DNA from: Bacteroidales bacterium
Lineage (GTDB): Bacteria; Bacteroidota; Bacteroidia; Bacteroidales; FEN-979
Length of the DNA: 37,503 nt
Reading direction: 5' to 3'
Assembly: GCA_030681475.1 (NCBI GenBank)
Contig: JAUXWT010000102.1
Coordinates: 1-37,503, forward strand
The notes below the pieces were generated by a model. That model was not told the origin of the DNA, ran no database searches, and worked only from the letters and a program-made list of their open reading frames with translations. Shown in pieces: positions 16,315 through 37,503 of the stretch; positions within the stretch are counted from its first letter, which is position 1, and each line of letters begins with the position of its first letter. The position numbers were made by a program, and so were the translations under genes.

Positions 16315-16389
16315 GTGCTGAAAAGAATAATGGCATTCATATAGATTCTGTCTCTCTGTCGAATAAATTGTTACGCAAATATCAACAAA

Positions 16390-17304: not shown

Positions 17305-17348
17305 TTTCATCATTGAGGTAAATACTTTTCAGGCGAAAATATTTAGTC

Positions 17349-20433: not shown

Positions 20434-22776
20434 ATGAAAATTAATGGCTTATTAGTAACCCTTCTTTATTTTCAATCGATTGCTTTCGTGTCGTTGGGTC
20501 TTGAGAATAATAACAGTGTAGATCTAAAACTGATTGCAGATTCCCTGAATAAAAATGCAGAAATATCACTAGCTTATGATCTCGAACATTCGAAAAATTT
20601 AGCCGAAGAAGCTCTTAAATTATCAAAACAGATAAATTATTCAATAGGTCAGGTAAGTGCGCTAAAAACATTGTCGGCTTACTGTTTTTATAAAGAAGAC
20701 TATATCGCAACACTTGAATTTTATTTTAAATTAATCGAAGAATCAGAACGAAGTTCTAACATTGAATCTCTTGTGTGGGTTTATATCAGTTTAACCCATT
20801 TTTTTATCCTTACCAAAGATTTTGAATTGGCAGAAAAATATCATCTCATTTTGACCCGGATTGCCCAAAAATCAATTGATCCTTCGTTACATGTCCCTGC
20901 TTTTTGGAATCATGCGGCATATTGCCTGGCTAGAGGGGATTACGATCTTGCCATCCGTTACCTTTACCTCTGTTTTCCGTATTTTCATAAAGCACAAGGC
21001 CTTAGCCGGGAAGGGAGCGTTTATAAATCCCTGGGGGATGCATTTCTGCAAAAAAAAAGATATACCAATGCAGAATATTATTACCGCCTTGCTATTGCAA
21101 TTTATTCCCGTAATCAGGACCTCACCGAACTGGCTATCATTTATACCCGGATCGCTCATATATATCAGTTGCTGAATAATGTCAAACAGAGCCTGGAATT
21201 CAATCTTTCAGCCCTGAGATTTCGTGAGCAGACAGGCAATACCAGATTGATCGCATCTTCCTGTCTGAACGTTGGAGAATCCTACAGGTTGCTCGGCAGA
21301 AAAGACTCTGCCCGGTTTTACATATATAGATCACTGCACCTCGCAAAAAACATTAACAATTCTATTCTGCTTGAAGCAATATATGAGACACTTTGTCGCT
21401 TTGCAAAAAAAGAAAACAGATACGCGGATGCGCTGGAGTATTTCAAGGCCAAGTCGGAATACAGGACAAAAATAAACCAGGATAGAACCCGGTGGGAAAT
21501 TTTAATCCTTGACGCGAACCGCACCATCAGAGCCCGCGAAGAACAAAATGATATCATAAAACAGGAAATTGTGATTCAGGACCTCCGGATAAAAAATCGA
21601 CGGATTAAACTGTTTTTATACGAGGTTGCATTTCTGACCATGCTCTCCGTGATCTTTTTCATAGAAGCGATTGCGAGGAAAAACCGAAAACGGAAGTATG
21701 AATTAACAGAATTAAATACCCGCCTGAGTCAGGAAATTAAGGATCGTATCGAAGCTGAGGTGAGGCTCAACCGGAGCGAAGAGTTGCAGCGATTCCTGGC
21801 AGAAAATACGGTTGATGTTATTTCACTGTTGGATGCCAATCTGCGCAGGTTATACATCAGTCCATCAAGCGAACAATTCTATGGATACAGCACCAGGGAA
21901 ATCCTTCAAATGAAAAGTCCATTGGATCTGATAGATCAATCTTATCATACCCTTGTGAATCAGCATCTGCTTGAACTGGGCAGTTCGAAAAAATCAACAC
22001 AGTTTATCTACAAAGCGAGGCGAAAGGATGGTTCGGCTTTTTGGGCTGAAGCAAATATCAATCCCGTTCTGGATACTGAAACAAGTGAGGTGCAAAATGT
22101 GATTAAAGTGGTGCGCGATATTTCTGAACGGATGAAACATCAAGAAGAACTGGCCGAAAATTCCAGGCAAAAAGAGTTCCTTCTCCATGAAATTCACAAT
22201 CGTGTCAAAAATAACTTTGCCATTCTTGTCAGTCTGATGAATATGCAACACGACCAATCGGTCAACCCGGATTTGAACAGATCTCTGAACGATTTACAAT
22301 TAAGGGTTCGTACCATGTCACTTGTTCATGAACAGCTTTACCTGACTCAGGAAATACACACCATTCCCTTTGGGAATTACCTGCTTCATCTTGCTCAAAT
22401 TATTTCAAGCTCGTTCAGCAACAACCACGTTCAGTTGAAAACAGAAATACAAACCTGCAATGTTCCCATAGAAATGGCATTGCCTCTGGGCCTTATAATT
22501 AATGAACTCATTACAAACGCGTACAAATACGCTTTTCCAGACGAACGGACCGGTACCATATGGGTTAAACTACTCCCTGAGGACGAAGAGAAATTCTGTA
22601 TCACGATCTGTGATGACGGTGTTGGCCTGGCGAAGGATTTTCCCATGAATAAATCCGACACTATGGGATCACAGATCGTGAGGATATTGGTCGAGCAAAT
22701 TGAAGCAATCTTCGAAGTTTCCAACAATGGGGGCGCCTGCTACCGTATTGTCTTTTCAACAACCCAAGCAGAATAA
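20434..22776 (+). CDS. TPR-PAS-HisKA_2 hybrid sensor histidine kinase
   Basis: The protein is about 780 residues from ATG 20434, which is preceded by AAAAAGGA. It has a signal or anchor (INGLLVTLLYFQSIAFVS) and an extracytoplasmic TPR array at about 30-370. A transmembrane helix lies near 390-412, then a short coiled coil. A PAS/PAC module spans about 453-570 (FLAENTVDVISLLDANLRRL; VVRDISERMK). A HisKA_2 dimerisation domain carries the phospho-acceptor His in EIHNRVKNN (about residue 588). A HATPase_c domain follows with N-box NELITNAYKYAF and G-box DDGVGLA. HisKA_2 kinases often signal through separate response regulators, and none is adjacent; the nearest is at 32659-33327. The frame extends to a TTG at 20404 but the ATG is better. 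Confidence 0.9.
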   Translation: MKINGLLVTLLYFQSIAFVSLGLENNNSVDLKLIADSLNKNAEISLAYDLEHSKNLAEEALKLSKQINYSIGQVSALKTLSAYCFYKEDYIATLEFYFKLIEESERSSNIESLVWVYISLTHFFILTKDFELAEKYHLILTRIAQKSIDPSLHVPAFWNHAAYCLARGDYDLAIRYLYLCFPYFHKAQGLSREGSVYKSLGDAFLQKKRYTNAEYYYRLAIAIYSRNQDLTELAIIYTRIAHIYQLLNNVKQSLEFNLSALRFREQTGNTRLIASSCLNVGESYRLLGRKDSARFYIYRSLHLAKNINNSILLEAIYETLCRFAKKENRYADALEYFKAKSEYRTKINQDRTRWEILILDANRTIRAREEQNDIIKQEIVIQDLRIKNRRIKLFLYEVAFLTMLSVIFFIEAIARKNRKRKYELTELNTRLSQEIKDRIEAEVRLNRSEELQRFLAENTVDVISLLDANLRRLYISPSSEQFYGYSTREILQMKSPLDLIDQSYHTLVNQHLLELGSSKKSTQFIYKARRKDGSAFWAEANINPVLDTETSEVQNVIKVVRDISERMKHQEELAENSRQKEFLLHEIHNRVKNNFAILVSLMNMQHDQSVNPDLNRSLNDLQLRVRTMSLVHEQLYLTQEIHTIPFGNYLLHLAQIISSSFSNNHVQLKTEIQTCNVPIEMALPLGLIINELITNAYKYAFPDERTGTIWVKLLPEDEEKFCITICDDGVGLAKDFPMNKSDTMGSQIVRILVEQIEAIFEVSNNGGACYRIVFSTTQAE

Positions 22777-22779: not shown

Positions 22780-23811
22780 ATGAGTAATCAACACAAAAGA
22801 ATCACAATTATCGGAGCAGGAACCATTGGAACTGCACTGGGGAATATACTTGCAGAATCAGGCCAGGATGACATTCTTCTTCATTCCATCGAACAGCAGG
22901 TTGTGGAGGATATTAACCGGTCACATATCAATTCAAAATATTTTCCAACCCTGAAGTTGCATCCAAACCTGTTTGCCACCACGGATGACAAAATGCTTGA
23001 ATCCAGTAAGATCATCTTTCTGGCAATTCCATCCGTGGTGATGATCGATTACCTGAAAAAACTTCAAATTCATCTCAGACCGGATACGATCCTGATCAAC
23101 CTGGCCAAAGGATTTGGAGTTGGCAACAGAACAATCCTCGAAGGTCTGAAAGAGCAGTTTCCCAACCCCTTATGTACAATGAAAGGTCCCAGTTTTGCCC
23201 GGGAAATCTTAAACCGTTCACCAACCGGTTTTACGCTTGGTTACCAGGATCCGGATCATATCCTGATCGTCAGGACGCTATTCAGGAACACAAACATTCA
23301 TCTTGATTTTTCCGATGATATCCGCGGCGTGGAGATTCTCAGCATTCTTAAAAACATATATGCTGTTGTTATGGGGATCGTTGACGCACAATTCAATTCC
23401 CCCAACCTGCGGTTCCTTATCCTGACCAAAGCATTTCAGGAGATGCGTAAAGTATTATTGTCGTTCGGAGGCCGGTCAGATACCTTATTTAATTACTGCG
23501 GAATTGGTGACTTTACCCTCACCTCATTAAACGACCTCAGTCGCAACCGAACACTCGGACTCCTTATCGGAAAAGGATTTTTTACCGAACATGTATCGCA
23601 TGAACTTGTATTGGAAGGAAAAACTGCCGCGAATGTCTTCTATCAGGAAATTTCAAAAACAATGGTTGTCGAAGATCATTTTCCCATCATTGCCGAACTT
23701 TACCGTATCTTCCAAAGCAATTACGACATCTCACTTTTTGTCAATAAAATTCTTGAGTTCCCCGGATCTTGCCCTGCCCGGGATTTGGATTGCTTGACGA
23801 AGCACGATTAG
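22780..23811 (+). CDS. Divergent glycerol-3-phosphate dehydrogenase-like protein (GpsA family)
   Basis: This 343-residue protein has an N-terminal Rossmann fold with GAGTIGTALG, then INLAKGFG and the GpsA signature KGPSFAREI. The catalytic Lys-Asn pair is kept in ILKNIYAVVMGI, and the substrate-binding SRNR motif is present. However, the usual 'GDNxKAAL' block reads NSPNLRFLILT, and AGxGDL reads CGIGDFTLTS. The normal reaction is NAD(P)H-dependent reduction of dihydroxyacetone phosphate for phospholipid synthesis. Given the changes this may be a paralogue with another substrate. It starts 3 bp after the sensor kinase and is probably translated from the same mRNA, an odd pairing. Confidence 0.8.
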   Translation: MSNQHKRITIIGAGTIGTALGNILAESGQDDILLHSIEQQVVEDINRSHINSKYFPTLKLHPNLFATTDDKMLESSKIIFLAIPSVVMIDYLKKLQIHLRPDTILINLAKGFGVGNRTILEGLKEQFPNPLCTMKGPSFAREILNRSPTGFTLGYQDPDHILIVRTLFRNTNIHLDFSDDIRGVEILSILKNIYAVVMGIVDAQFNSPNLRFLILTKAFQEMRKVLLSFGGRSDTLFNYCGIGDFTLTSLNDLSRNRTLGLLIGKGFFTEHVSHELVLEGKTAANVFYQEISKTMVVEDHFPIIAELYRIFQSNYDISLFVNKILEFPGSCPARDLDCLTKHD

Positions 23812-23874: not shown

Positions 23875-24245
23875 GGGGCTGACTGGTTTTGACAGCCAGG
23901 GAGTGGAATTGTAAGCATGCCGAGTGTTCGTGAGCAGGCCTCGTTAAAAGTCAGCTTTCACAGCCATTAACTGGCGACAATTATTCTTACAGACTTGCTG
24001 CTTAATTTTAGAAATTAAGCGCGTCTTGTCTCCCGGAAAACCATTCTCAACGGTGTTCCGGACGAGGCATCGCAAATGTTGAGATAGTCGGGTCATTGTT
24101 CCGCTGATCCGATGAAATAACAGGAACTAAGGAGTCAGTTGGTTTGCCACTGACCGGCCGGCTCCCGACAATTAACGAGAGGCTAAGCATGTAGAAACCA
24201 TTTTTGCTACTGGTTTGGACGAGGGTTCGAATCCCTCCAGCTCCA
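23875..24245 (+). ncRNA. ssrA: Transfer-messenger RNA (tmRNA), tag ending GDNYSYRLAA
   Basis: The RNA is about 371 nt. The 5' end GGGGCTGACTGGTTTTGACA and the 3' end GGACGAGGGTTCGAATCCCTCC then AGCTCCA form the tRNA-like domain; GGGGCTG pairs with CAGCTCC with one G-U. The 3' CCA is not encoded (CAA follows the discriminator base). The tag frame is read as GGC GAC AAT TAT TCT TAC AGA CTT GCT GCT TAA (23973-24005), giving GDNYSYRLAA. A perfect 9-bp hairpin (GCTTAATTT-TAG-AAATTAAGC, 24000-24020) overlaps the stop codon. Together with SmpB (not in the window) tmRNA rescues stalled ribosomes and marks the product for proteolysis. The resume codon is inferred from related tags. Confidence 0.96.
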
Positions 24246-24293
24246 CAAAGTGCAGTAAATCAGATGTATTGACCATTCATTATAGTCCTTGCA

Positions 24294-25040
24294 ATGTTGT
24301 TAGGTAAAAAGATTATCGTTGTTCTCCCGGCTTATAATGCCGGGAAAACAATGGCTCAAACCATAGCAGAGATTCCGTTTGACCTTGTGGATGAATATGT
24401 AGTTGTGGATGACGCCAGCACCGACAATACCATGGAAGTTGCCAACGCCCTTCATGTAAAAAACCTCATCAGACATGACAGGAACAAAGGATATGGCGGG
24501 AATCAAAAGACTTGTTATAATACTGCCCTTGAGTTGGGCGGTGATATCATCATCATGTTGCATCCCGACTACCAGTACACCCCGAAACTTATCCCTTCAA
24601 TGGCCTATCTGATTGCCAGTGGCCTGTATCCGGTGGTCATTGCTTCACGGATCCTTGGAAAAGGCGCGCTCAGAGGTGGAATGCCCATGTATAAATATAT
24701 TTCAAACCGGCTCCTCACCTGGATCCAGAATTTGTTGATCAATCAAAAACTATCTGAATACCATTCCGGCTACCGCGCTTTTTCACGTGAAGTGCTTGAA
24801 ACAGTCAATTATCAGGCCAACTCCGACGACTTTGTTTTCGACAACCAGATGCTTGCCCAAATTTTCTATTCCGGGTACGAGATCGCGGAAATAACCTGTC
24901 CTACCAAATACTTTGAAGAGGCATCCTCCATAAATTTGAGACGAAGCATCAAATACGGTCTTGGTGTCCTGAAAACATCATTCGGCTATTTCCTGCAAAA
25001 GAACAGGTTGGTTTCGCTTCCGATGTACAGGCCCAAATAG
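24294..25040 (+). CDS. GT2 glycosyltransferase, polyprenol-phosphate-sugar-synthase-like
   Basis: This 248-residue protein is a GT-A fold enzyme without membrane helices. The nucleotide-sugar site shows LPAYNAGKTMAQTI and VVVDDASTDNT. The NKGYGGNQKTCY and MLHPDYQYTPKLIPSM blocks replace the usual DxD with HPD-x-Q, as in many bacterial DPM1-like enzymes. The later YHSGYRAFSREVLE is also typical. Such enzymes move a sugar from a nucleotide donor to polyprenyl phosphate, or act on glycans directly. It ends 6 bp before the first TMTC-like gene, which suggests it supplies the lipid-linked donor that GT-C type transferases use (inference). The start ATG lies 48 bp after ssrA. Confidence 0.87.
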   Translation: MLLGKKIIVVLPAYNAGKTMAQTIAEIPFDLVDEYVVVDDASTDNTMEVANALHVKNLIRHDRNKGYGGNQKTCYNTALELGGDIIIMLHPDYQYTPKLIPSMAYLIASGLYPVVIASRILGKGALRGGMPMYKYISNRLLTWIQNLLINQKLSEYHSGYRAFSREVLETVNYQANSDDFVFDNQMLAQIFYSGYEIAEITCPTKYFEEASSINLRRSIKYGLGVLKTSFGYFLQKNRLVSLPMYRPK

Positions 25041-25046: not shown

Positions 25047-26750
25047 ATGGCAACCAAAAAGAAGATCATCAGCGAAAAAGAAAAATTCTTGAACTGGAAG
25101 ATCCTTCTGATCATTGCGGTGTGTTTTATTGCCTTCATCCCTTCACTGAAAAACGATTTTGTAAATTGGGACGACATTGTTTATATCATGAACAATGACA
25201 TGATTACAACCTTTTCCTGGCTGAACCTGCAGAAAATGTTTTCCTCCTTCTTTATGGGAAATTACCACCCGCTTATACTCCTGAGCTTTTCATTCGACTT
25301 TCACCTTTTTCAATTCGATGCGCACGGGTATCACGTTCATAACCTGGTGTTGCATATGATCAATACCTTCCTCGTATATATGTTTTTTTTCAACCTGATG
25401 AAAAAGAACATTAATGTGTCTGCTACAATCGCGCTGCTATTTGCTATTCATCCCATGCATGTTGAATCTGTTGCCTGGGTTTCGGAGCGAAAAGACCTGT
25501 TATATACTGCCTATTTTATGCTGTCATTGATCGCCTATCTGCGATATTTGAATAAAGGCAAATCGTCGTTTTATTTCCTTTCTCTGCTTTTTTTCATTTT
25601 TTCATTGCTATCAAAAGCTCAGGCTGTCACGCTGCCTTTGGTGTTGTTCCTGTCAGACTATTTGTTATCCCGGAAATTTGAATGGAAAAATCTTCTGGAG
25701 AAAATTCCTTTTTTGGTTTTATCGCTGATTTTTGGGATTACCGCCGTCTTTGCCCAAAAAGCAAATGGCTTTTTAAACCCTCTCGATATACCAGTGTACC
25801 AAAGTCTCTTTTACGCTCCATATGGAGTTTGCATCTATTTGTTTAAATTCGTTCTTCCGGTTTACCAGACTGCTGTTTACATATACCCAACCACGCTCGC
25901 AGGAGAAGTGCCGTTCTATATCTATTTTTCACCCATTATTCTTATATTTGTTGCGATTGCAATATGGAAAACCTGGAAAAACACCAGATATATCACTTTC
26001 GGCCTGCTGTTCTTCCTGACAACAATATTACCGGTTCTGCAGTTCCTGCCGGTTGGCCCTGCAGTGGTTTCTGAACGCTATACATACATACCCTACCTTG
26101 GATTGGCTGCAATCGTTGCAATTTTATTCTGGGAAAAAATACCGGCAATGGAAGTCCGGTGGAGAAATATTTTTAAAGCTGGCGCCAGCTTGCTGATCCT
26201 GATTCTCATCATACTCACATGGAACCGTAACCTTGTATGGAGGGACAGTGTTACTTTATGGACGGATGTCATGGAAAAAAATCCAAGGTGTATCTCCGCC
26301 TATATCAACAGGGCCTTTATTTTCAATGAACAAAAGCAATATGATGAGGCGCTTCAAGACTGCACGGATGGTTTGAAGATCGATTCAACAAACTTTACTT
26401 TATATAAGAACAGGGGAATCGCTTATGGCATCATCGGAAAGCATGGCCTTGCCCTTTCTGATTATTCCAGTGCGATCAAATACAACCCCAACGATTATGA
26501 TTCCTACCTTTACCGGGGCATCCTTTTAACCGATAAATTCGCAAAACATGATTCGGCAATTTCGGATTTTAAGAAATATCTCAGCCATTCACCGGATAAT
26601 CTTAATGCAACCTTCAATTTAATTGTCGCAAATTATAATAAAGGGAGCTTTGACAGCGCCAGGGTCTATTGCTTAAAAGTAATCGCTTTGGATCCGGGTA
26701 ATGCACAAGCCCGACAGTTGCTGGAAACAATTGATAAGCTAAAACCATGA
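25047..26750 (+). CDS. TMTC-like multi-pass membrane protein with C-terminal TPRs (class A, copy 1)
   Basis: This 567-residue protein has about 9-11 transmembrane helices up to residue 395, then about three TPRs (SAYINRAFIFNEQKQYDEAL; YKNRGIAYGIIGKHGLALSD; YNPNDYDSYLYRGILL). The first non-cytoplasmic loop has the acidic motif FVNWDD, and a second conserved block reads HPMHVESVAWVSERKDLLYT. The later SERYTYIPYLGL corresponds to the ER-x-x-Y-x-P-S-x-G motif of TMTC proteins. In animals TMTC1-4 O-mannosylate cadherin domains; bacterial relatives are common but mostly uncharacterised. It is linked to the next gene by a 4-bp ATGA overlap and follows the GT2 gene by 6 bp, so three genes probably share one transcript. 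Confidence 0.83.
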   Translation: MATKKKIISEKEKFLNWKILLIIAVCFIAFIPSLKNDFVNWDDIVYIMNNDMITTFSWLNLQKMFSSFFMGNYHPLILLSFSFDFHLFQFDAHGYHVHNLVLHMINTFLVYMFFFNLMKKNINVSATIALLFAIHPMHVESVAWVSERKDLLYTAYFMLSLIAYLRYLNKGKSSFYFLSLLFFIFSLLSKAQAVTLPLVLFLSDYLLSRKFEWKNLLEKIPFLVLSLIFGITAVFAQKANGFLNPLDIPVYQSLFYAPYGVCIYLFKFVLPVYQTAVYIYPTTLAGEVPFYIYFSPIILIFVAIAIWKTWKNTRYITFGLLFFLTTILPVLQFLPVGPAVVSERYTYIPYLGLAAIVAILFWEKIPAMEVRWRNIFKAGASLLILILIILTWNRNLVWRDSVTLWTDVMEKNPRCISAYINRAFIFNEQKQYDEALQDCTDGLKIDSTNFTLYKNRGIAYGIIGKHGLALSDYSSAIKYNPNDYDSYLYRGILLTDKFAKHDSAISDFKKYLSHSPDNLNATFNLIVANYNKGSFDSARVYCLKVIALDPGNAQARQLLETIDKLKP

Positions 26751-28678
26751 AATTTCAACTGATCAAGCATACGCCTCATCTCCTGATATTTCTTTTGGCA
26801 TTTCTGCTTTATGGAAATACACTGACTCATGACTATGCTTTGGACGACCTGATTGTCATCAAAGAAAATTCATTTACAAAAAATGGTTTTGCCGGAATTA
26901 AAGATATATTTAGCTTTGATTCATTTACAGGTTTTTTTGGCGCCGAGAAAAAACTTGTTGCCGGCGGAAGGTACAGACCCTTATCCATTGCCACTTTTGC
27001 AATCGAATATGAATTATCCGGCGGATTAAACCCCTTTTTAAGTCACCTGATCAATATCCTGCTTTACGCATTTACAGGGATTCTTATTTTCATGATCCTT
27101 TCCAGACTGATAAAGACTCCCCCCGGAAAACCCTGGTACATCGGCATACCTTTCATTGCATCCGCTTTATTTATAGCACACCCTGTTCATACCGAAGTGG
27201 TTGCCAATATCAAAGGCCGGGACGAAATTCTGGCGTTCCTGTTCCCGCTGATAACCGTGTGGCTTACCGTTCGCTACTTTTCTGAACGGAAACCAATCCT
27301 GTTGATCGGCGCTAACCTGTTTTTCTTTCTAGGCCTGTTGTCAAAAGAGAATGCGATAATGTTTGTTGTCCTTACACCTTTAACTATCTACTACTTTACA
27401 AAGACTCCCCTGATGAAAAACGTGACTGTTGGTGTCTCATTTTTACTGACTGCATTAATTTTTGTTTTTGTAAGGTTTCTTGTATTGGGTTATATCAACT
27501 CCGGCGAATTACCAAGAGAATTATTGAACAACCCATTCCTCGACGCAACACAGGGCGAAAAATTTGGCACGATCTTATACACACTAGGGCTTTATGTTAA
27601 ATTACTTTTCTTCCCACATCCGCTAACGCATGATTACTATCCGTATCATATTCCCCTGGTCCCCCTGTCCGACTGGAAAGCTATTCTTTCCTTTGTTCTG
27701 TATACAGGGATGATCTTTTATGCAATATTGAGATTCAAATCCAAGGATATTATCTCCTATGGTATTTTCTTTTACCTGATCACACTGTTTATAGTTTCGA
27801 ACATGCTCTTTCCGGTCGGAACATTTATGAATGAGCGGTTTATCTATATGTCATCACTTGGTTTTACTATAATAGTGGCTTGCCTAATATCGGATAAACT
27901 CTTCAGGGTTATTAAAAAAGAGGGTTTATTCAAGCAATTAGCGACCGGCATTTTACTTATCACCCTGATGCTGTTTACGATTAAAACCTATACAAGGAAC
28001 AAAGCATGGAAAGATAATTTTACCCTCTTTACCACAGATGTACTTGTTTCGGAAAACAGTGTGAAATGTAACATTTCAGCCGGTGGCGATTATCAGAAAA
28101 AAGCCGGAACGGAAACTGATCCGGCTAAACAGGCAGAATACTACGGGCTCTCCATGCAATATCTTGAAAAAGCAATCAAAATATACCCTAAAGCCATCAA
28201 TGGACTTGTATTATATGGAAATGGGTTGACTCTGTATAAAAAAGATTATAAGGGGGCAATTGAACAATATTTTAAGGTACTGGCTTTTGACCCATTCAAT
28301 AAAAATGCTTATACCAATACCTTGCAGGTTTTGGGGTCACTGGATAATGGTATGGAATCTGACTACAAAGTAAGGATTTTAAAACAACTATATGCAATAA
28401 ATCCCGAAAACCCGGATGTGAACTATATCCTTGGAAAATTATACGGCCAGTTCAGGGGAAACCTTGACTCAGCATCCTATTTCCTCGAACGTTCAATAAA
28501 TTTCAATTCAGGGAACATTGCTGTTTTTAAAGACCTCGGAATCGTTTACAGCATGAAAGGTGAATATGCCAAAGCATTGGATGTTTTCTCAAGAGCACAG
28601 AAACTGGATCCATCTGATCAGCAGATCCGTCAAAACATCCAGGTTACCTATAACATTATGAATCAAAAGAAAAAGTAG
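26747..28678 (+). CDS. TMTC-like multi-pass membrane protein with C-terminal TPRs (class B, copy 1)
   Basis: This 643-residue protein has about 10 transmembrane helices, then TPRs from about residue 445 to the end (YLEKAIKIYPKAINGLVLYG; GIVYSMKGEYAKALDVFSRA). The acidic loop motif is DYALDDLIVI, then GGRYRPLSIATFA. The second block, HPVHTEVVANIKGRDEILA, closely recalls the HTEAV-x-x-IVGRAD motif of animal TMTC proteins, and NERFIYMSSLGFT is the third. Class B thus looks closer to TMTC than class A. Its start overlaps the class A stop as ATGA. It converges on the second class B gene with only 9 bp between stops, leaving no room for a separate terminator. Confidence 0.83.
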   Translation: MKFQLIKHTPHLLIFLLAFLLYGNTLTHDYALDDLIVIKENSFTKNGFAGIKDIFSFDSFTGFFGAEKKLVAGGRYRPLSIATFAIEYELSGGLNPFLSHLINILLYAFTGILIFMILSRLIKTPPGKPWYIGIPFIASALFIAHPVHTEVVANIKGRDEILAFLFPLITVWLTVRYFSERKPILLIGANLFFFLGLLSKENAIMFVVLTPLTIYYFTKTPLMKNVTVGVSFLLTALIFVFVRFLVLGYINSGELPRELLNNPFLDATQGEKFGTILYTLGLYVKLLFFPHPLTHDYYPYHIPLVPLSDWKAILSFVLYTGMIFYAILRFKSKDIISYGIFFYLITLFIVSNMLFPVGTFMNERFIYMSSLGFTIIVACLISDKLFRVIKKEGLFKQLATGILLITLMLFTIKTYTRNKAWKDNFTLFTTDVLVSENSVKCNISAGGDYQKKAGTETDPAKQAEYYGLSMQYLEKAIKIYPKAINGLVLYGNGLTLYKKDYKGAIEQYFKVLAFDPFNKNAYTNTLQVLGSLDNGMESDYKVRILKQLYAINPENPDVNYILGKLYGQFRGNLDSASYFLERSINFNSGNIAVFKDLGIVYSMKGEYAKALDVFSRAQKLDPSDQQIRQNIQVTYNIMNQKKK

Positions 28679-28687
28679 TTATCGTTT

Positions 28688-30616
28688 TTACCTCATTTCC
28701 GATAATTCCTTTACACGTGCCATGTTTCCCATGTTATAATAGGATGCCGAGAGGTTTTGCCTTATTTTTACATCTGCCGGATTTATCTTCAGCGCTTTTT
28801 CAAGATAAAATGCAGATTGTCTGAAATTTCCCTTCATGGCATAGGCAACGCCAAGATCACTCAGGCAATCCAGTTTTGTACTGTCGATCATCGTTGCCCT
28901 GACAAGGTTGCTAATGGATGAATCGGGTAAATTCAACTCCTTGCCGAAAACAAGTCCTTTGTTATAATACGTTTCGTACTTTTCACCTGCAGCTTTTATT
29001 AACAGATTATAATATTTTATTTTCAGGGCAGGTTCATTCAATCTGTTTACAGAAACAAAATAGTTGTTGAACGCTTTTTCATAGGACTTGTTGATCTCAA
29101 GTGTTTCGATATACATATCCAGAGCCCGCTCATACTCTCCGTTTTCATAATAAGCATTTCCAAGCAAAAAGGTCTCTGTGGTGGTCTTGTTCATTGATGC
29201 AGCCTGTTCGAGATAAGGGATCGCCCGTTGTGCAAGCATCTTTTTTTCAGCGTTACTGGTGGCCATTTCTGCCTTTAACAATAATTCGTGCCCGGCCCCT
29301 TTGGTAATAACGGCGCTGTTTACAGAAGTCTTCACATCCTGCGTGTACAGTGTAAAACTATCCTTCCAGTCAAAGTTGCGGGAGATCGTTTTTCCGGAAT
29401 AAAGGAGCAATAAACCTGCAAAGCCATAGGGCAGTAACTTTGTCATTTTACTCTTTTCTGCAGCCCGGATCAATATCCAGGCAATCGCAACGGCAAAGCC
29501 GACCGATGGAATAAATGTAAACCGTTCGCCCATAAACGGACCTATAATAAACAGGATATTCGAAACGGGAAATAGTGCGCCGAGATAGAAAAGTAAACCG
29601 AAACCTGCAATATTTCTGCGGTAAGTAAGAAAAATCGCTGCCACAGTGAGTCCTGCATAAAGTAACAATGGCAGTATTGCCCGAACATCGGTCAGTCCGA
29701 CATATGGAATATAAAACGGATAATAATCGATGGTGAGCGGATGTGGCACAAATAATAATTTCAGATAAAGCCACAGGGTGTAAAATGTTGTTCCATATCG
29801 TTCCGAGAACCCGGATGCGTACATGAATGAATTGCTTAAGATATTATCCTCCATGGACGGTTTAGCGCTCCATCCCAGTACACTCTGCCTGATGAGCATG
29901 AATATGATAAAACCTGCAAGTAAACTCACTGTGGTAATTCCGGCCGACTTGCGGAATATTGCCGTGCTTCTGAAACAATAAATTGAAACAGGGATCAAAA
30001 CAAGCATCGGTGCGGCGCTCTCTTTTGACATCAGGGCAAGAAATAAGAATAGTCCCCCATAAAATAAATATGTCGGTTTAGGTTTGTCAGCATACCGGAT
30101 GATCGAATTCCATGCAAGCAATCCAAACAGCAATGCCATCAATTCATCACGGCCTTTAATATTCGCTGTAACTTCAGTGTGGATCGGATGGGCTGCAAAG
30201 ATCAAAGCCCCCATCAGTGACAGACTGAGAAAATAATCCCTGAATTTTTTAAACACTAATTTTTCCTTAAACAAAGCAGCAAGCACTTTGAATAACAGCA
30301 TACAGATCAACCCGTAAAGGATCACGTTTACAAAATGGCTTATAAAAGGATTTGCGCCGAAAAACTGATATTCCGCGCTGAAGGTTATCAAAGAAAGTGG
30401 CCGGTAACGGCCACCCCTGAAAAGGTTTTTTTGTCCCGTGAAACCAGTAAAACTATCATTAAACAAATGGCCGAAAATTCCAGTCAATCCCTCTGTTGTA
30501 AACCGGTTGCCTGCTATAACACTGAAATCATCATAGGCATATTTATTTGGCAGCGTGTTTAAATAAATAGCGGTCCCGAACAGAAATATAAATAATGGCA
30601 AATAGGATTTCTTCAT
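28688..30616 (-). CDS. TMTC-like multi-pass membrane protein with C-terminal TPRs (class B, copy 2)
   Basis: This 642-residue protein is clearly paralogous to the class B gene it faces. It shares KYAYDDFSVIAGNRF, FTGFTGQKNLFRGGRYRPLS, HPIHTEVTANIKGRDELMA, HPLTIDYYPFYIPYVGLTD and GERFTFIPSVGFA, in the same order and at nearly the same length. TPRs occupy about residues 455-640 (GNAYYENGEYERALDMYIET; GVAYAMKGNFRQSAFYLEKA). Its start overlaps the stop of the upstream class A gene by 4 bp, as in the plus-strand pair. All proposed motif acids are intact, so it does not look decayed. Acceptor and donor are unknown. Confidence 0.83.
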   Translation of the reverse strand: MKKSYLPLFIFLFGTAIYLNTLPNKYAYDDFSVIAGNRFTTEGLTGIFGHLFNDSFTGFTGQKNLFRGGRYRPLSLITFSAEYQFFGANPFISHFVNVILYGLICMLLFKVLAALFKEKLVFKKFRDYFLSLSLMGALIFAAHPIHTEVTANIKGRDELMALLFGLLAWNSIIRYADKPKPTYLFYGGLFLFLALMSKESAAPMLVLIPVSIYCFRSTAIFRKSAGITTVSLLAGFIIFMLIRQSVLGWSAKPSMEDNILSNSFMYASGFSERYGTTFYTLWLYLKLLFVPHPLTIDYYPFYIPYVGLTDVRAILPLLLYAGLTVAAIFLTYRRNIAGFGLLFYLGALFPVSNILFIIGPFMGERFTFIPSVGFAVAIAWILIRAAEKSKMTKLLPYGFAGLLLLYSGKTISRNFDWKDSFTLYTQDVKTSVNSAVITKGAGHELLLKAEMATSNAEKKMLAQRAIPYLEQAASMNKTTTETFLLGNAYYENGEYERALDMYIETLEINKSYEKAFNNYFVSVNRLNEPALKIKYYNLLIKAAGEKYETYYNKGLVFGKELNLPDSSISNLVRATMIDSTKLDCLSDLGVAYAMKGNFRQSAFYLEKALKINPADVKIRQNLSASYYNMGNMARVKELSEMR

Positions 30617-32610
30617 TTACTTTTATTCTTTAATCCTTCAAGGTATGATTCATCAACTGCGTAATTTGCCGATTTTGCCTTCAGCGCATATTGGTATGCC
30701 TTCGCAAAATCCTGCTGAGCCTTAAAGATCACGGAACTATTATAATAGGCATTTCCATTCGAAGGATTCAATTTAAGACACCGTGAGTAGTCATCCAGGG
30801 CTTCCCGGTTTCGCCTTAACATATAATAACAAGTTCCTCGTTTGAGAAAATAATCATCATTTTCGGGATTCTTATCAATCAAATTGGTATAATCATTTAC
30901 AGCATCTTCATACCTGCCCATCTCCAGAAGCGTATATGCTTTGTTTAAATAAACTCCAATTACTCCGGGTTTGAGTAATAAAGCTGTTTCGTAATCTCTC
31001 AAAGCAAAATCAAATTGTTTAGCCTTTGCATAGGTAATTGCCCGGTTAAAATAGGTTTCAGGATTAACGCTATCGAGTGCAATGGATTTTGAATATGCAT
31101 CAAGCGCTTTTTCGGTTTCATTCCTTAATCCATAGATGTTTCCCATATTGCTGAAAGCACGCGGGTCGTCGGTTTTCAATCTAATGTAGATATTATAATC
31201 TTCAAGCGCTTTATCTGTAATATTTTGCGAACCATAAAAATTACCGCGGTTTTTATAAGATATTTCCGCCTGTGGGTATTTCGAGATAACATCAGTCCAT
31301 AAGGTTTCTGAATTTTTCCACACCTTGATTTGGTCATTGGCTACTATTCCTATCACGACGGCAAATAATATCAATGCACTTGCCAAAATCCAGCGAGCCT
31401 TGTATAATACGTTTGCCTTACCTGTAAACCCCTGATCAACGTACCAGGCAATAATATAAAACAAGCCAATTGATGAAACATAGGAGTAACGGTCTGCCAT
31501 AATAGCGCTGCCAACCGATACAAATTGCAACACAAGGACAAGGGAGAATAAATAGAAAAGAAAACCGAATAGAACGACCCTGGTGAACCGGGCAGAATAA
31601 AACGCCAGTCCGCCAAGGATTATCGCGATCACCGGCGAAAGATAAAATATCATCGGGAGTCCACCTGATTGGCTCAGTTGCGGGTAAGGGTAAAATGCCG
31701 CCAGGTCCCAGGGGACAATCAACTTAATTAAATACATCACAAATCCATACGTTGCAAACATCAACCGCTGTATCATGCTAAAAACTTTAATATCAGCGAT
31801 AGCATCTTTCGATTGGATAAAAACGGTGATTAATCCGAACACTACCGAAAGGATAAAAAACGGTACTTTCTCCAACCAAAGCCGCATTGAAAATTTACGC
31901 CCCTGAATATAATCGATTGCCACTAAAATCAACGGAAATACAACAGCAGATGGCTTTGAAAGCAGGGAACATATGTAGATTACAAAAATAACCGGTAAAT
32001 ATTTCAATGCCCCTTTTTCAATGTACTTCAAGTACATGATCAAACCGGCCATAAAGAAAAATGTATAGAGTACATCTTTCCTTTCAGCGATCCAGGCCAC
32101 CGACTCAACATGCATCGGATGAATTGCAAAGAGAAGCGATGTAATGATTGCCACCAACAGCCTCCTTCTGGCAAGCAGGAACACGAATATAAAAACAAGT
32201 GCAATGTTGAAAAGATGCAGGATAATGTTTGTCACATGAAATCGTGCAGCCCTGGATTCTATGTGTTTGTCAGACAAAGTATTGCTTTCTGAGGCGTAAT
32301 AATAATCAATGCCAAGTGAGATCATGGTAAGCGGATGGTAATTGGATGCGGAAGGATTTGAAAAAAAATATTTGATGTTTTCTCCGCTTAACTTCTTCAC
32401 ATGTGGGTTTTCCAGGACATAGGTCGGATCATCCCAGTTGGTAAATCCGTATCTGATCGCCGGACTATAAAGAAGCCAGGTAATTATCAATATACCAGCC
32501 AATGGTATAATAAAATACCACACAGGTTGTGTTTTATCTGCTTTTTTCTTTGCCGGAAATGATCCTGTTCCTTGTGCTTTTTTATTTGGAACCTTAGTAT
32601 TCTGTTTCAT
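30613..32610 (-). CDS. TMTC-like multi-pass membrane protein with C-terminal TPRs (class A, copy 2)
   Basis: This 665-residue protein has a Lys-rich N-terminal cytosolic tail of about 30 residues, then a helix (VWYFIIPLAGILIITWLLY) and about 10 more. Motifs match class A: FTNWDDPTYVLENPH, HPMHVESVAWIAERKDVLYT, and ADRYSYVSSIGLF in the ER-x-x-Y position (Asp-Arg here instead of Glu-Arg). At least five TPRs fill residues 440-650 (NMGNIYGLRNETEKALDAYS; YLNKAYTLLEMGRYEDAVND; YLKRGTCYYMLRRNREALDD), more than in copy 1. It lies 48 bp downstream of the response regulator and may be cotranscribed with it. Confidence 0.83.
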   Translation of the reverse strand: MKQNTKVPNKKAQGTGSFPAKKKADKTQPVWYFIIPLAGILIITWLLYSPAIRYGFTNWDDPTYVLENPHVKKLSGENIKYFFSNPSASNYHPLTMISLGIDYYYASESNTLSDKHIESRAARFHVTNIILHLFNIALVFIFVFLLARRRLLVAIITSLLFAIHPMHVESVAWIAERKDVLYTFFFMAGLIMYLKYIEKGALKYLPVIFVIYICSLLSKPSAVVFPLILVAIDYIQGRKFSMRLWLEKVPFFILSVVFGLITVFIQSKDAIADIKVFSMIQRLMFATYGFVMYLIKLIVPWDLAAFYPYPQLSQSGGLPMIFYLSPVIAIILGGLAFYSARFTRVVLFGFLFYLFSLVLVLQFVSVGSAIMADRYSYVSSIGLFYIIAWYVDQGFTGKANVLYKARWILASALILFAVVIGIVANDQIKVWKNSETLWTDVISKYPQAEISYKNRGNFYGSQNITDKALEDYNIYIRLKTDDPRAFSNMGNIYGLRNETEKALDAYSKSIALDSVNPETYFNRAITYAKAKQFDFALRDYETALLLKPGVIGVYLNKAYTLLEMGRYEDAVNDYTNLIDKNPENDDYFLKRGTCYYMLRRNREALDDYSRCLKLNPSNGNAYYNSSVIFKAQQDFAKAYQYALKAKSANYAVDESYLEGLKNKSK

Positions 32611-32658: not shown

Positions 32659-33327
32659 TCAATGAATTAACAGTCCATTTTCAACTGCCACTTTTACCAG
32701 TTGGGCTGTATTCCGCAATTTCATTTTCTTGAATAAATTGGATTTGTGCCTTTCCACTGTTTTATTGCTGATGAACATCTTATCGGAGATCTCTTTAGTA
32801 GAATACCCGTCGGACAAGTAACCGATAATTTCAATTTCCCTGGGGGTGATATTCCGGAAGTCAACTGCACCAACTACTGCTTCAGAGGCATAGTCGCGCA
32901 ACATTACCCTGGAGCATAAACTGCAAAAATATGTTTTTCCACTGTTAACTCTAATGATCCCTTCGCGAAGTTCATCAACTGTGCAATTCTTTGATAAAAA
33001 ACCTTTTGCCCCGTGTTTTAGCATCTCTTTAATAAAAAACGGATGGTTATGTCTCGACAGGGATATAACTTTTACCCAAGGCACTTTTTCATCAATAATC
33101 CGTGTAACTTCGATACTGGTCAGTCCGGGCTTTTTAATATCCAACAAGATCACATCAGGTTTGACGACTTCGAGTTTTTTCAACAACTCATTTCCGTCAG
33201 AAGCGGTACCTGTGATTTCAAAATCTCCAAAAGATTCGATGAGCGAAGTCAGCGAATGAAGTATAATCCCCTGGTTTTCAGCGATCATTATCCTGATCTT
33301 GCCATTATCACCGTGAAGGTTTTCCAT
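32659..33327 (-). CDS. NarL/LuxR-type response regulator with atypical acidic pocket
   Basis: The protein is about 222 residues from the ATG at 33327 (MENLHGDNGKIRIMIAENQG). The receiver domain has the phospho-acceptor Asp in VILLDIKKPG, a Ser in ISLSRH and the Lys in KGFLSK, but the usual Asp-Asp pair near the start reads Glu-Asn (AENQ). The C-terminal LuxR-type HTH is canonical: ITPREIEIIGYLSDGYSTKE, MFISNKTVERHKSNLFKKMK. The frame runs on to 33516, but that 63-residue extension has no homology and lies across a promoter-like site. It may control the TMTC-like pair downstream. The missing acid may weaken Mg-dependent phosphorylation. Confidence 0.88.
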   Translation of the reverse strand: MENLHGDNGKIRIMIAENQGIILHSLTSLIESFGDFEITGTASDGNELLKKLEVVKPDVILLDIKKPGLTSIEVTRIIDEKVPWVKVISLSRHNHPFFIKEMLKHGAKGFLSKNCTVDELREGIIRVNSGKTYFCSLCSRVMLRDYASEAVVGAVDFRNITPREIEIIGYLSDGYSTKEISDKMFISNKTVERHKSNLFKKMKLRNTAQLVKVAVENGLLIH

Positions 33328-33455
33328 GTCATGGTCAAATTTAACAATTTTTAACTTTACTGAAGCCTTATCATTTAGATTAATTGTTATACTTTTGATA
33401 AAAAAATATAGAATGTTAATCAGGCATAAAGGAGTAATATGTGAATATAATCTTG

Positions 33456-33487
33456 CAAAAATAATAAAAATACGAGATTTCGGACAA
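33456..33487 (-). promoter_or_regulatory. Promoter-like site for the response regulator
   Basis: On the minus strand TTG (33487-33485) is followed after 21 bp by TATTTTTG (33463-33456), a match to TAnnTTTG. It lies about 130 bp before the ATG at 33327 and would exclude the longer frame starting at 33516. Confidence 0.4.
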
Positions 33488-33568
33488 TTGATGACATAAT
33501 TCTCAAAATGATGCAAATTTTTTTAAAAAATTGAACCATTTAACAACTTTTTTTTTTAATTTCGTCTA

Positions 33569-33875: not shown

Positions 33876-36800
33876 ATGAAAACACTTTACCTGAAGACAA
33901 CAATGAAGTTGATAAGGCTCTTACCGGTCTTAATATTCTTCATGCTGGCATTGTCGTACAATGCCAGATCACAGTTTGCTTCACCAAACCCGGTGTGTTA
34001 CGGACAGCCAATTTACCTGTTCTGTTCCTTATCGGGATGTGAAGTAGCTGGAGCTACTTATACCTGGACCAATGTTAGCGGCTCCTGGATTTCCACTGAC
34101 CAAAACCCGATAATTTTACCTTTTACCACGGGTTACGCAGAAGACAGGTTTTTCCTTCAAGTACAATTCGCCCCACCCCCGGGAGGTTTTTCCGGAGGTA
34201 CGGTTAAAGTGAATTTACTCCCCGGAGTTTCTGTCACCGGAACCGCTACCAATATTCTATGTTATGGCTTATCAACCGGTTCAATCAACATCACCGCAAC
34301 CGGTGGAAATCCCCCTTACACATACTTATGGAGTAACGGTTCAGTATCAAAAAACCAAACCGGGTTGGCAGCCGGCACCTATTCCGTTACTGTAACTGAC
34401 CTGTCTGGTTGTTTCAACGATACCCAAAGTTGGACGATTACTCAACCAAGCGATCTCATTCTTACCGGAGTGGTGTCGCCTGTGTTGTGTAATGGAGCCA
34501 GTACCGGGTCTGTAGATATATCTGTTTCGGGTGGAACACCCGGTTATGGTTATCTGTGGAGCAACGGAGCCGTTACACAGGATATCATTAATCTGGCAGC
34601 GGGTGTTTATACTGTTACAGTATCTGATGCAAATAATTGTAAAAAGATCAACAGTTATACTGTTACACAATCTTCGGCAATTATCCTAACAGGCACCCCA
34701 TCTCCTGTTTTATGTAATGGGGGCAGTTCAGGATCTGTAGACATTTCTGTTTCAGGCGGAGTCACACCTTACGGTTACTTATGGAGTAATGGAGCAGTGA
34801 CAGAAGACATCAGCGGATTGACTGCGGGTACTTATACAGTTACCGTGACAGATGCAAATAGCTGTACAACCTCCAATTCGTGGACGGTTACACAACCTTC
34901 AGCGCTATCGCTGACCGGTACGGCATCGCCCGTGCTTTGTTTTGGTGGTAGTACTGGAGCCGTAGATATTACCGTATCCGGTGGAACAATGCCTTACGGT
35001 TACATGTGGAGCACTGGTGCAATCACTGAAGATATCAGCGGACTGACTGCAGGTTTTTACACAGTTACCGTAACTGACGGCAATGCCTGTACAATGATGA
35101 TGAGTTATGAGGTTACCGGACCAGTGGCAGCACTTAATGCAACAGCAAGTGTGACCAATATTGACTGCAACGGCAATCATAATGGCACTATCAACCTTAC
35201 GGTTACAGGTGGCACTCCTGCTTATGCTTATGAATGGAGCAACGGATCAGTCACTGAAGATCTCACCGGCTTGTACCCGGGCACCTATACCGTAACTGTA
35301 ACCGATGCGAACGCTTGTTTTACCACAGGTAGCTGGATGATCTCAGAACCATCCGACATCTCCTGGTATGGCAGCGTTACAAATGTTAGTTGTTATGGCG
35401 GCAGCGATGGGCATATTGAAGGTGGCGCCGATGGCGGTACACCTCCTTATACCTATCAATGGAGCACTGGGGCAACAACCCAGAACATCGCCAATTTAAC
35501 TGCTGGCACATACACCGTAACCGCTACAGATGCAGTTGGTTGTTACACATTTACATCAAGGATTATCGGACAGCCCTCTGAACTGGTTATAGCCCAGCAG
35601 GCAGTAATTACAGATGTATCCTGCAACGGCGGCAGCGACGGAGCTATTGATATTTCAGTCTCCGGCGGAACCCCTGCATATACTTATATGTGGAGCAATG
35701 GGGAAACCTCGGAAGATATCGGCGGATTAGTTGCCGGTATGTACGTGGTTACTGTTACCGATGCTAACGGTTGTCAGAATTCAGCTTACTGGATGGTAAA
35801 CGAACCAGCGGCGCTTTCACTTACCGGCCAGGCATCTCCTGTGCTTTGTAATGGCGGCAGCACCGGTTCAATTAACATCTCTGTTTCAGGCGGAACTCCT
35901 GCTTACGGGTATATGTGGAGCAATGGCGCTATGACCGAGGACATTACAGGCTTAACTGCCGGTGTTTACACGGTTACCATAACCGATGCAAATGGTTGCA
36001 AAATTTCGGATTTCTGGACGGTTGCTGAACCTTCAGCGCTGAGCCTTACCGGCACTGCAACACCTGCTTTGTGTAACGGAGGAAGTTCCGGTACTATTGA
36101 CATTTCGGTTTCCGGCGGTACCATGCCTTATGGTTACTTATGGAGCAATGGAACCATGTCAGAAGACGTCAGCGGATTGGCTGCCGGTTTCTATACCGTA
36201 ACAGTTACTGATGACAATGGTTGTCAGATTTCCGACACATGGCAAGTTACCGAACCTTCTGCCCTTTCACTTACCGGCATGGCATCGCCTGTGTTGTGTA
36301 ATGGAGGCAGCACCGGATCGGTAGACATTACTGTTACTGGTGGTACTATGCCTTACGGTTACATATGGAGCAATGGCGAATCATCAGAAGACATCAGCGG
36401 ATTAACTGCAGGCACCTATTCTGTAGTGGTAACTGATGCAAATGGTTGCCAGATCTTCGACTACTGGATGGTTACAGAACCATCTGCGCTTTCACTTACC
36501 GGCACATCAACTCCTGTATTATGCTACGGAGGAACGACCGGTACTATTGACATCACAGTTTCCGGCGGTACAATGCCTTACGGTTACTTGTGGAGCAATG
36601 GCGCCATGACAGAAGACCTTAGCGGTTTAACTGGAGGTGTTTATACGGTTACTGTTACTGATGGTAACGCGTGTATGATCACATTGGACTTCACGGTATC
36701 AGGTCCTCAGGAAGCTCTCCTCGCAACTGCGGTTGTGACCAATATAGATTGCAACGGCAATCATAATGGAACGATCGATCTTACTGTTTCCGGAGGTACT

Positions 36801-37503
36801 CCTGCCTATGGTTACGAATGGAGTAACGGAGCAATCACCGAGGATCTCTCAGGTTTGTTCCCGGGTACTTACACCGTAACTGTAACTGATGCAAATGCCT
36901 GTATTACAACAGGTAGCTGGATGGTTTCAGAACCTTCGGATATCTCCTGGTATGGCAGCGTTACCAATGTAAGTTGTTACGGCGGTAGCGATGGTTTTAT
37001 CGAGGGCTCTGCCCTTGGCGGAACTCCTCCTTATACTTATTTATGGAGCAATGGTGAAACCACAGAGAATATCTATAACCTCACTGCAGGCACTTATACT
37101 GTAACTCCTACCGATGCAGCAGGTTGCTATACCTTTACATCCAGGGTGATCGGTCAACCCTTTGAACTGCTTATTTCACAAGGAACAATCGTTACGAATG
37201 TTTCATGTTTTGGCGGCAGCAACGGAGCAATCGACATCACCGTAACCGGAGGTACAATGCCATACGGTTATATGTGGAGCAATAGTGACACAACAGAAGA
37301 TATCAGCGGGTTAAATGCAGGTATCTACAATGTAACTGTTACTGATGCACACGGTTGCCAGACATATGGCGAATGTAATGTTGAGGAAGCCCCTGCGCTT
37401 ACACTTACCGGCACACCAACACCTGTGTTATGTAATGGAGGCAGTTCCGGTTCAATCGACATCATGGTCGCTGGCGGTACAATGCCATACGGTTATGCAT
37501 GGA
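33876..37503 (+). CDS. Giant SprB-repeat surface protein, N-terminal part (runs off window)
   Basis: The frame is open without a stop from ATG 33876 to the window end, about 1209 codons. It starts with a signal peptide (MKLIRLLPVLIFFMLALSYN from the second Met, cleavage near ARSQ), then an Ig/PKD-like domain (VCYGQPIYLFCSLSGCEVAG) to about residue 115. From there, repeats follow the SprB plan: C-x-G-G-S-x-G-x-I-D-I, GGT-P-Y-x-Y-x-WSNG, a -D-(I/L)-x-x-L-x-x-G-x-Y-T-V-T-V-TD block and a final NGC. Fourteen are complete and a fifteenth begins. SprB in Flavobacterium is a mobile gliding adhesin secreted by T9SS. Here adhesion is likely; gliding cannot be judged. A type B C-terminal domain is expected beyond the window. 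Confidence 0.9.
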   Translation, partial: MKTLYLKTTMKLIRLLPVLIFFMLALSYNARSQFASPNPVCYGQPIYLFCSLSGCEVAGATYTWTNVSGSWISTDQNPIILPFTTGYAEDRFFLQVQFAPPPGGFSGGTVKVNLLPGVSVTGTATNILCYGLSTGSINITATGGNPPYTYLWSNGSVSKNQTGLAAGTYSVTVTDLSGCFNDTQSWTITQPSDLILTGVVSPVLCNGASTGSVDISVSGGTPGYGYLWSNGAVTQDIINLAAGVYTVTVSDANNCKKINSYTVTQSSAIILTGTPSPVLCNGGSSGSVDISVSGGVTPYGYLWSNGAVTEDISGLTAGTYTVTVTDANSCTTSNSWTVTQPSALSLTGTASPVLCFGGSTGAVDITVSGGTMPYGYMWSTGAITEDISGLTAGFYTVTVTDGNACTMMMSYEVTGPVAALNATASVTNIDCNGNHNGTINLTVTGGTPAYAYEWSNGSVTEDLTGLYPGTYTVTVTDANACFTTGSWMISEPSDISWYGSVTNVSCYGGSDGHIEGGADGGTPPYTYQWSTGATTQNIANLTAGTYTVTATDAVGCYTFTSRIIGQPSELVIAQQAVITDVSCNGGSDGAIDISVSGGTPAYTYMWSNGETSEDIGGLVAGMYVVTVTDANGCQNSAYWMVNEPAALSLTGQASPVLCNGGSTGSINISVSGGTPAYGYMWSNGAMTEDITGLTAGVYTVTITDANGCKISDFWTVAEPSALSLTGTATPALCNGGSSGTIDISVSGGTMPYGYLWSNGTMSEDVSGLAAGFYTVTVTDDNGCQISDTWQVTEPSALSLTGMASPVLCNGGSTGSVDITVTGGTMPYGYIWSNGESSEDISGLTAGTYSVVVTDANGCQIFDYWMVTEPSALSLTGTSTPVLCYGGTTGTIDITVSGGTMPYGYLWSNGAMTEDLSGLTGGVYTVTVTDGNACMITLDFTVSGPQEALLATAVVTNIDCNGNHNGTIDLTVSGGTPAYGYEWSNGAITEDLSGLFPGTYTVTVTDANACITTGSWMVSEPSDISWYGSVTNVSCYGGSDGFIEGSALGGTPPYTYLWSNGETTENIYNLTAGTYTVTPTDAAGCYTFTSRVIGQPFELLISQGTIVTNVSCFGGSNGAIDITVTGGTMPYGYMWSNSDTTEDISGLNAGIYNVTVTDAHGCQTYGECNVEEAPALTLTGTPTPVLCNGGSSGSIDIMVAGGTMPYGYAW
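34240..37503 (+). repeat. SprB tandem repeats with a 7-unit higher-order period of 1584 bp
   Basis: The Trp codon of each WSNG-type motif falls at 34329, 34557, 34782, 35007, 35235, 35460, 35691, 35916, 36141, 36366, 36591, 36819, 37044, 37275 and 37500. Unit lengths are 225, 228 or 231 bp. From the fourth unit on, unit n and unit n+7 are always 1584 bp apart and carry the same subtype sequence: for example CNGNHNG in units 5 and 12, and SDISWYGSVTNVSCYGGSDG in units 6 and 13. Confidence 0.93.

Follow-up and report, generated by a model that had tools for sequence, protein, structure and literature searches.

The window analysed here, the whole 37,503-bp stretch that makes up contig C101 of a 4.24-Mb Bacteroidales assembly (98.7% complete, 111 contigs), contains a convergent array of four genes, A1, B1, B2 and A2. 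They encode large membrane proteins that join a GT-C glycosyltransferase-like region to C-terminal tetratricopeptide repeats (TPRs). The array lies between a gene for a family 2 glycosyltransferase (GT2) and, beyond a regulatory gene, one for a giant SprB-repeat adhesin. We consider it somewhat probable that the four proteins are the membrane components of a glycosylation pathway acting in the periplasm, in which sugar would pass from GT2, by way of the A and B proteins, to exported acceptors; the gene identities, their conservation, the coupling with GT2 and the neighbourhood are directly supported by the observations given below. The central genes are as follows (aa, amino acids; G and L numbers are our handles for genomes and loci, C numbers for contigs of the present genome):

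24294..25040, + strand: GT2, polyprenyl-phosphate-sugar-synthase-like (PF00535)
25047..26750, + strand: A1, class A, a GT-C-like membrane protein ending in TPRs, 567 aa
26747..28678, + strand: B1, class B, a TMTC-like membrane protein containing DUF1736 and ending in TPRs, 643 aa
28688..30616, - strand: B2, class B, the second of its class and convergent with B1, 642 aa
30613..32610, - strand: A2, second class A protein, not the sister of A1, 665 aa

Two classes of GT-C/TPR proteins

Open reading frame (ORF) calling returns the four long ORFs in the positions and the order A>B> <B<A described by an earlier, sequence-only reading of this DNA, together with the junctions it had noted: a 4-bp ATGA overlap of A1 and B1 (26747-26750), a TCAT (minus-strand ATGA) overlap of B2 and A2 (30613-30616), and 9 bp between the B1 and B2 stops (28679-28687). 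The class motifs are also as it gave them (A1 HPMHVESVAWVSERKD and A2 HPMHVESVAWIAERKD; B1 HPVHTEVVANIKGRDE and B2 HPIHTEVTANIKGRDE). Its description of the products as TMTC-like GT-C/TPR proteins of two old classes holds as well, with the restriction that only class B is strictly TMTC-like. Profiles of the two classes can be aligned almost end to end (E 2e-69), so A and B are two branches of one family; of the 220 related ORFs in the collected loci, a count that includes duplicate loci and the four ORFs of the window, 7 are ambiguous between the classes. The A1-B1 overlap is preserved in three relatives (G018, G002 and G001); that of B2 and A2 is not, there being gaps of 25-46 bp in all four relatives in which an A2 orthologue adjoins B2.

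All four proteins have TPR matches in Pfam. A1 matches PMT_2 with 27.1 bits (above the cut-off of 26.1), and TMTC_DUF1736 (PF08409) is matched by B1 with 28.1 bits (above the cut-off of 27) and by B2 with 22.6, below it. Among the 52 sequences of the class B set, TMTC_DUF1736 is found in 31 and PMT_2 in 28 at E <= 1e-3. We used the TMTC motif definitions M1-M7 of PMC7801869 (here and below, statements on cited papers follow the available portions of their texts); their placement on the present alignment is our own. Invariant in class B (52/52) are D33 and D34 (M1), Y76, R77 and P78 (M2), K200 and E201 (M4), and E363 and R364 (M7, which reads E-R-F throughout). M3 is R-D-E, with the R in 51 of 52, where TMTCs have RxD, and M5, which we locate within the region matching DUF1736, reads D-Y in 52/52 where they have DW; the S-H-K-S part of M2 is absent, and M4 has N or S for T or Q in 49 of the 52. 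The 21 class A sequences all have D42, D43, Y73, P75, R148 and D150 (as RKD), K190 (M4) and R344 (M7). The M4 glutamate and M5 aspartate coordinate the metal in TMTC models (PMC7801869). B would accordingly be a TMTC relative that uses a metal, and A, which has neither acid, a metal-free or non-catalytic variant; lacking both acids, class A is filed here as a GT-C/TPR relative and not as a TMTC.

AlphaFold models of B1 (52 sequences) and A1 (21 sequences) have mean predicted local distance difference test scores of 90.3 and 87.6, respectively. Reading their helices by hand as 11 transmembrane spans plus juxtamembrane helices, which follows the span count of 11 given for TMTCs (PMC7801869), puts motifs M1, M3, M4, M5 and M7 and the TPR domain on one side of the membrane. 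The positive-inside contrast that results is clear in A1 (15 K/R in 47 residues inside vs 4 in 142 outside) and moderate in B1 (14 in 55 vs 13 in 169). From the models and these charges (for the B TPRs, from the 11-span reading and the moderate B1 contrast) we infer that the active site and the TPR domain of the A and B proteins may both face the periplasm. Over 12 pairs of orthologues the TPR parts (64-86% identity) and the GT-C parts (67-83%) are about equally conserved. Between B1 and B2 the TPRs are 28% and the GT-C parts 44% identical; between A1 and A2 both parts are 38% identical. These values fit TPRs that set specificity, though they are no proof of it.

Coupling with GT2 and the neighbouring adhesin

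The GT2 stop and the A1 start are 6 bp apart. Nineteen genomes of the genus were compared, 13 of which (G000-G004 and G011-G018) have the array locus; in all 13, GT2 (82-92% identical) adjoins the first A or B gene within 120 bp. It is the most conserved gene compared, with 91-92% identity in G018, G002 and G001, where A1 and B1 have 70-76%. Its NCBIfam matches, all below cut-off, are to AglJ, PpgS, dolichyl-phosphate hexose transferase and PgfS. In five families other than that of the genus, GT2 comes immediately after a B gene (G073, G075, G111, G123 and G127; gaps from -14 to 41 bp); a sixth (G054) has it behind an A-type gene, at a distance of 84 bp. G073, G075, G123 and G127 were chosen because their coordinates already matched and G111 was already among the collected loci; another eight GT2 loci were fetched, and in one of them, that of G054, the genes were adjacent. 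A GT2 orthologue (E <= 1e-70) is present in 51 family representatives, and in at least 6 of these it is coupled to A/B genes. Among 106 genomes, one per family, 40 have both a GT2 orthologue and a GT-C match, 11 only the former, 17 only the latter and 38 neither (Fisher 9e-7).

To the right of the array lie two further genes on which the argument draws:

32659..33516, - strand: LuxR-type response regulator, first gene of the right operon, with same-place orthologues in relatives
33876..37502, + strand: giant SprB-repeat adhesin gene, 5' part, cut by the contig end

The adhesin ORF in the window has 15 SprB repeats, each passing the cut-off; its counterpart in G018 is a protein of 2850 aa with 28 such repeats and a type IX secretion system (T9SS) sorting domain. 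A SprB gene lies past the response regulator in 11 of the 11 array-bearing genomes whose contig reaches that point (those of G004 and G011 end earlier). Genus members with the array have 9-119 SprB matches, vs 0-7 in the other six. Over the 106 one-per-family genomes the SprB and GT-C counts are correlated (Spearman 0.48, p 2e-7; 0.41, p 0.003, in the 50 that have both). Contingency tables were also made (presence, 50/23/7/26, p 7e-6; SprB>=10 with GT-C>=3, 18/28/12/48, p 0.049; SprB>=40 with GT-C>=4, 14/4/8/80, p 7e-9); their cut-offs were chosen after the data had been seen, and we therefore place the weight on the rank correlation. Nine SprB ORFs or pieces of ORFs contain 19-25% Ser+Thr.

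From these genes a pathway can be proposed. GT2, by its family, would load a sugar onto polyprenyl phosphate in the cytoplasm, and the lipid-linked sugar would get to the outer face of the membrane via a putative flippase. There A and B, as GT-C-type enzymes of the TMTC kind, would transfer it to exported acceptors at the periplasmic face, with the TPRs selecting the acceptor or a partner. The leading candidate acceptor would be the nearby giant, type IX-secreted SprB-repeat adhesin, which is suggested as the target by its neighbourhood, by the co-occurrence just described and by analogy with TMTC/cadherin and Pgf/Cnm (below).

A number of points weigh against this periplasmic glycosylation reading. 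In class A a glutamate follows the M4 K190 in 0 of 21 sequences, the aligned M5 region of the same sequences has no conserved aspartate, and PMT_2 is matched in only 2 of the 21. Foldseek searches gave TPR-type matches only among the 50 matches listed, so the GT-C fold rests on the Pfam matches and the motifs; the Foldseek matches themselves neither support nor oppose it. A profile made from the four GT-C parts found no solved relative, its three matches being at chance level (E 0.6). The per-genome SprB and GT-C counts are those among the matches listed and are thus at-least values, the co-occurrences of GT2, SprB and GT-C could be due to common descent, to the size of the genomes or to lifestyle, and no SprB-GT-C neighbourhood outside the genus was noticed among the matches listed. 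T9SS tails are so numerous in G018 (all 150 scored candidates match, of 364) that a T9SS neighbour alone means little, and we dropped it as stand-alone evidence. The activity, the sugar and the acceptor proposed here are all predictions. Finally, the window has polysaccharide-type genes (flippase-like, FkbM methyltransferase and family 1 glycosyltransferase) at 14806-18401.

These last genes would fit a different acceptor: the A and B proteins could add sugar to a polysaccharide, either lipid-linked or at the surface (O antigen or exopolysaccharide), in the manner of Gtr proteins, the adhesin being merely a neighbour. A GT2 plus a GT-C protein is also the logic of the three-component Gtr systems. 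On the other hand, C-terminal TPRs and DUF1736 are features of the TMTCs, which act on proteins, and in the relatives that show this flank the polysaccharide-type genes are unrecognisable left of the kinase gene described below (judged by gene size and order only). We find a polysaccharide acceptor rather unlikely. Glycosylation of exported proteins, which we prefer, can be set beside several known systems.

Comparison with known systems

TMTC1-4 (CAZy GT105) are eukaryotic O-mannosyltransferases of the extracellular cadherin (EC) domains of cadherins (PMC7801869), and different paralogues modify different strands of these domains (PMC13123603). The array resembles them in its GT-C region with DUF1736 and in the DD, YRP, R.., KE, D and ER residues (PMC7801869), as well as in having several paralogues and C-terminal TPRs, here predicted to be on the active-site side; the TMTC targets, like the candidate here, are adhesion proteins. 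It differs in being bacterial, in the clustering of its genes with a GT2 gene and in a class A without the metal-binding acids, and class B departs from the TMTCs in having DY for DW, RDE for RxD and only the YRP of SHKSYRP. Like the array proteins, PMT/POMT enzymes belong to the GT-C clan, and their donor is a lipid-phosphate-mannose; unlike them, they have a MIR domain (PMC7759382) where the present proteins have TPRs, and Pfam gives no MIR match in A1, A2, B1 or B2. Mention has been made of TMTC-like genes in protists and of a homologue of POMTs in bacteria (PMC8724618). Among the papers listed in our searches (most subscription papers lay outside them), we found none on such arrays of bacterial TMTC-like proteins, and none that joins such transferases with SprB, judging by titles and the starts of abstracts.

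The Pgf system of Streptococcus mutans (PgfS, PgfM1, PgfE and PgfM2) modifies the adhesins Cnm and WapA, and the Cnm adhesin gene is transcribed with genes for a GT-A glycosyltransferase and PMT-like membrane proteins (PMC5856776). Here too a glycosyltransferase gene, genes for PMT-like membrane proteins and an adhesin gene lie together, the adhesin gene being beyond A2 and the regulator and divergent. The likeness extends to the below-cut-off PgfS match of the present GT2 and to a YfhO protein with below-cut-off PgfM matches at the end of the G018 locus; A1, A2, B1 and B2 themselves have no NCBIfam PgfM match at E <= 0.01. Pgf differs in having no T9SS, and TPRs are not mentioned for it in the available part of PMC5856776.

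In the general O-glycosylation of Bacteroidota, whose O-oligosaccharyltransferase is undiscovered, transfer is to Ser/Thr in the periplasm, with mannose in the protein-proximal core (PMC12871550). The phylum is the same, and Ser/Thr, the periplasm and core mannose are features of that known route. The sequence motif of that route has Asp before the modified residue and preferentially hydrophobic residues after it (PMC12871550). The SprB ORFs are poor in a D-S/T motif, with 14 in 14445 aa vs about 73 in composition shuffles; the repeats are not independent, the G015 piece is not depleted and some pieces may share one gene. The exact letters counted are what we take the motif to be. This, and the absence of A/B profile matches at E <= 1e-6 from 49 of the 106 one-per-family genomes, sets the locus apart from the general route, and the same absence led us to reject A and B as the universal Bacteroidota O-oligosaccharyltransferase.

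The locus, with TMTC-like GT-C/TPR genes in a bacterial array with GT2 near an adhesin gene, is a candidate second protein-glycosylation route in Bacteroidota, where the known route is still without an identified transferase. Expanded bacterial TMTC relatives, tied to GT2 in several families and near a giant adhesin, also offer a genetically simple setting for studying how GT-C/TPR proteins choose their acceptors. A bacterial version of animal cadherin glycosylation becomes testable at this locus. In that more ambitious picture, which we offer as a tentative and on present evidence doubtful extension, one lipid-phosphate-sugar synthase would feed a family of TMTC-like GT-C/TPR proteins as a bacterial counterpart of cadherin O-mannosylation, the TPRs of each would direct the sugar to one particular site in the threonine-rich repeats of giant, type IX-secreted SprB adhesins, and lineages would diversify their surface by gain and loss of transferases at this locus.

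History of the layout and flanking genes

The sequence-only reading had suggested, from the symmetry of the array, an inverted duplication of a two-gene operon or A-B heteromers kept in two versions, and neither proposal stands as a general account. In trees of the A proteins (56 rows) and B proteins (64 of 111, every fourth being kept from L137 on), made after exclusion of duplicate copies of loci, ORFs <450 aa and scores <60, every window gene groups with its orthologues in the genus. The clades of A1 and A2 are far apart, and forcing the A1 and A2 groups into one clade costs 121 log-likelihood units (approximately unbiased test, p 6e-7), so the expected sisterhood fails for A under the model and sampling used. 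For B it is unrejected: the tree with B1 and B2 forced together was 9.75 log-likelihood units better than that of the free search (p 0.69). The groups constrained were in both cases named after the trees had been seen. B1 and B2 may, by these trees, be old sisters that arose by duplication of a B gene alone, and the symmetry of the layout and this possible sisterhood are what can be said for the duplication of an A-B operon, the latter fitting a B-only event. The rejected A clade and the other gene orders and contents of relatives make operon duplication very improbable indeed.

These orders vary widely. The exact core A1>B1> <B2<A2 is found in 3 of the 13 array-bearing genomes (the window's own, G018 and G002), and G018 and G002 have an extra A gene ahead of the regulator. 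G016 and G013 have B1> <B2<A, G003 and G012 have B>B1>A1> <B2, and G011 has B1>A1> <B2 followed by the contig end. G014 has GT2>A1 and B1>A1> <regulator on separate contigs; G004 has three A1-like genes and one more A with no B before the contig end; G015 has dispersed A/B genes; and the versions in G001 and G017 are split across contigs. With the rejected A1/A2 clade, this variety means that the A>B> <B<A symmetry does not stem from a duplicated operon. The array instead consists of two operons that converge, with GT2 at the head of one and the response regulator at the head of the other, assembled gene by gene; the symmetry as such is incidental.

A second alternative concerns how the proteins work: A and B might form an obligate heteromer, kept in two versions, with A as a regulatory or metal-free half. 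POMT1 and POMT2 act as an obligate heteromer, and the idea gains from the A1-B1 overlap preserved in G018, G002 and G001, from the lack of the M4 glutamate and M5 aspartate in class A, and from A adjoining B in 10 of 15 family loci (assigned by us at >=54% identity). Several observations count against it. B loci from named genomes were the best 80 of 89 with B1 as query; among the 65 non-family loci one yielded no B in gene calling and was excluded, and A adjoins B in 0 of the 64 usable ones, one of which has an A elsewhere in the locus. In G013 and G016, B1 has no neighbouring A1 (though an A gene still adjoins B2), G004 has its four A genes with no B before the contig end, and A/B genes have been gained, lost and reordered within the genus. 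An obligate heteromer is therefore improbable, more so than a polysaccharide acceptor, and A-B pairing is not a general rule. That the layout is a coincidence, which the sequence-only reading had named as the outcome of distant clades without A-B linkage elsewhere, is for the most part borne out by the A clades and the 64 loci; against it, A-B adjacency recurs in G019 and G026 (a second genus of the family) and in G094 (another family). The A1-B1 coupling is preserved in 4 of the 13 array-bearing genomes, and a local A1/B1 partnership may thus exist in some of them.

The left flank of the locus contains two conserved features:

22780..23811, + strand: G3PDH gene, conserved left neighbour, not thought to be part of the mechanism
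23875..24246, + strand: tmRNA gene between G3PDH and GT2, a syntenic landmark

The tmRNA gene was found in 8 of the 11 relatives' loci searched (L105, L106, L107, L109, L113, L084, L087 and L090). A TPR/PAS histidine kinase gene on the left (20434-22776) and the LuxR regulator gene on the right frame the locus and have counterparts in several relatives; two-component control of the locus by this pair is possible. Family matches of the regulator begin at residue 73 of its ORF (32659..33516), and its true start is probably near 33300. A scan for promoter consensus sequences gave 42 sites vs 29 +- 5 in shuffles, and one for terminators 9 vs 10; neither was used.

On the right, contig C101 ends and contig C41 starts inside SprB ORFs (window 33876-37502; L207 1-4716) whose summed length is about that of the G018 counterpart, and the two are probably one split gene. 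Beyond the adhesin, in G018 and on C41, are proteins with T9SS tails (partly below cut-off) and another GT-C/TPR gene pair. A protein with three cohesin matches is encoded near the SprB adhesin on C41 (L207 7017-9155), and the G018 YfhO protein at the far end of the locus (L209 1577-4096) has PgfM1 and PgfM2 matches far below cut-off. Between B2 and the regulator, G003 and G012 have a gene whose product, of 1097 and 1250 aa, respectively, matches no Pfam family (L113 13630-16923; L114 681-4433).

B-type genes also occur outside the array, in the present genome on contig C5 (L003 478-2529, 8 bp from an ORF that we take to be rsmA-like) and in genus members that lack the array. A solitary B gene is followed by a dprA gene in L196 (10760-12980), where an alkaline phosphatase gene also follows it, and in L148 (11157-12266), and many other Saprospiraceae loci have ORFs of similar size at the dprA position downstream of a solitary B. 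The closest named relatives of B1 are in metagenome-assembled genomes of uncultured Bacteroidales or Bacteroidetes, whose isolate names mostly read as lakes.

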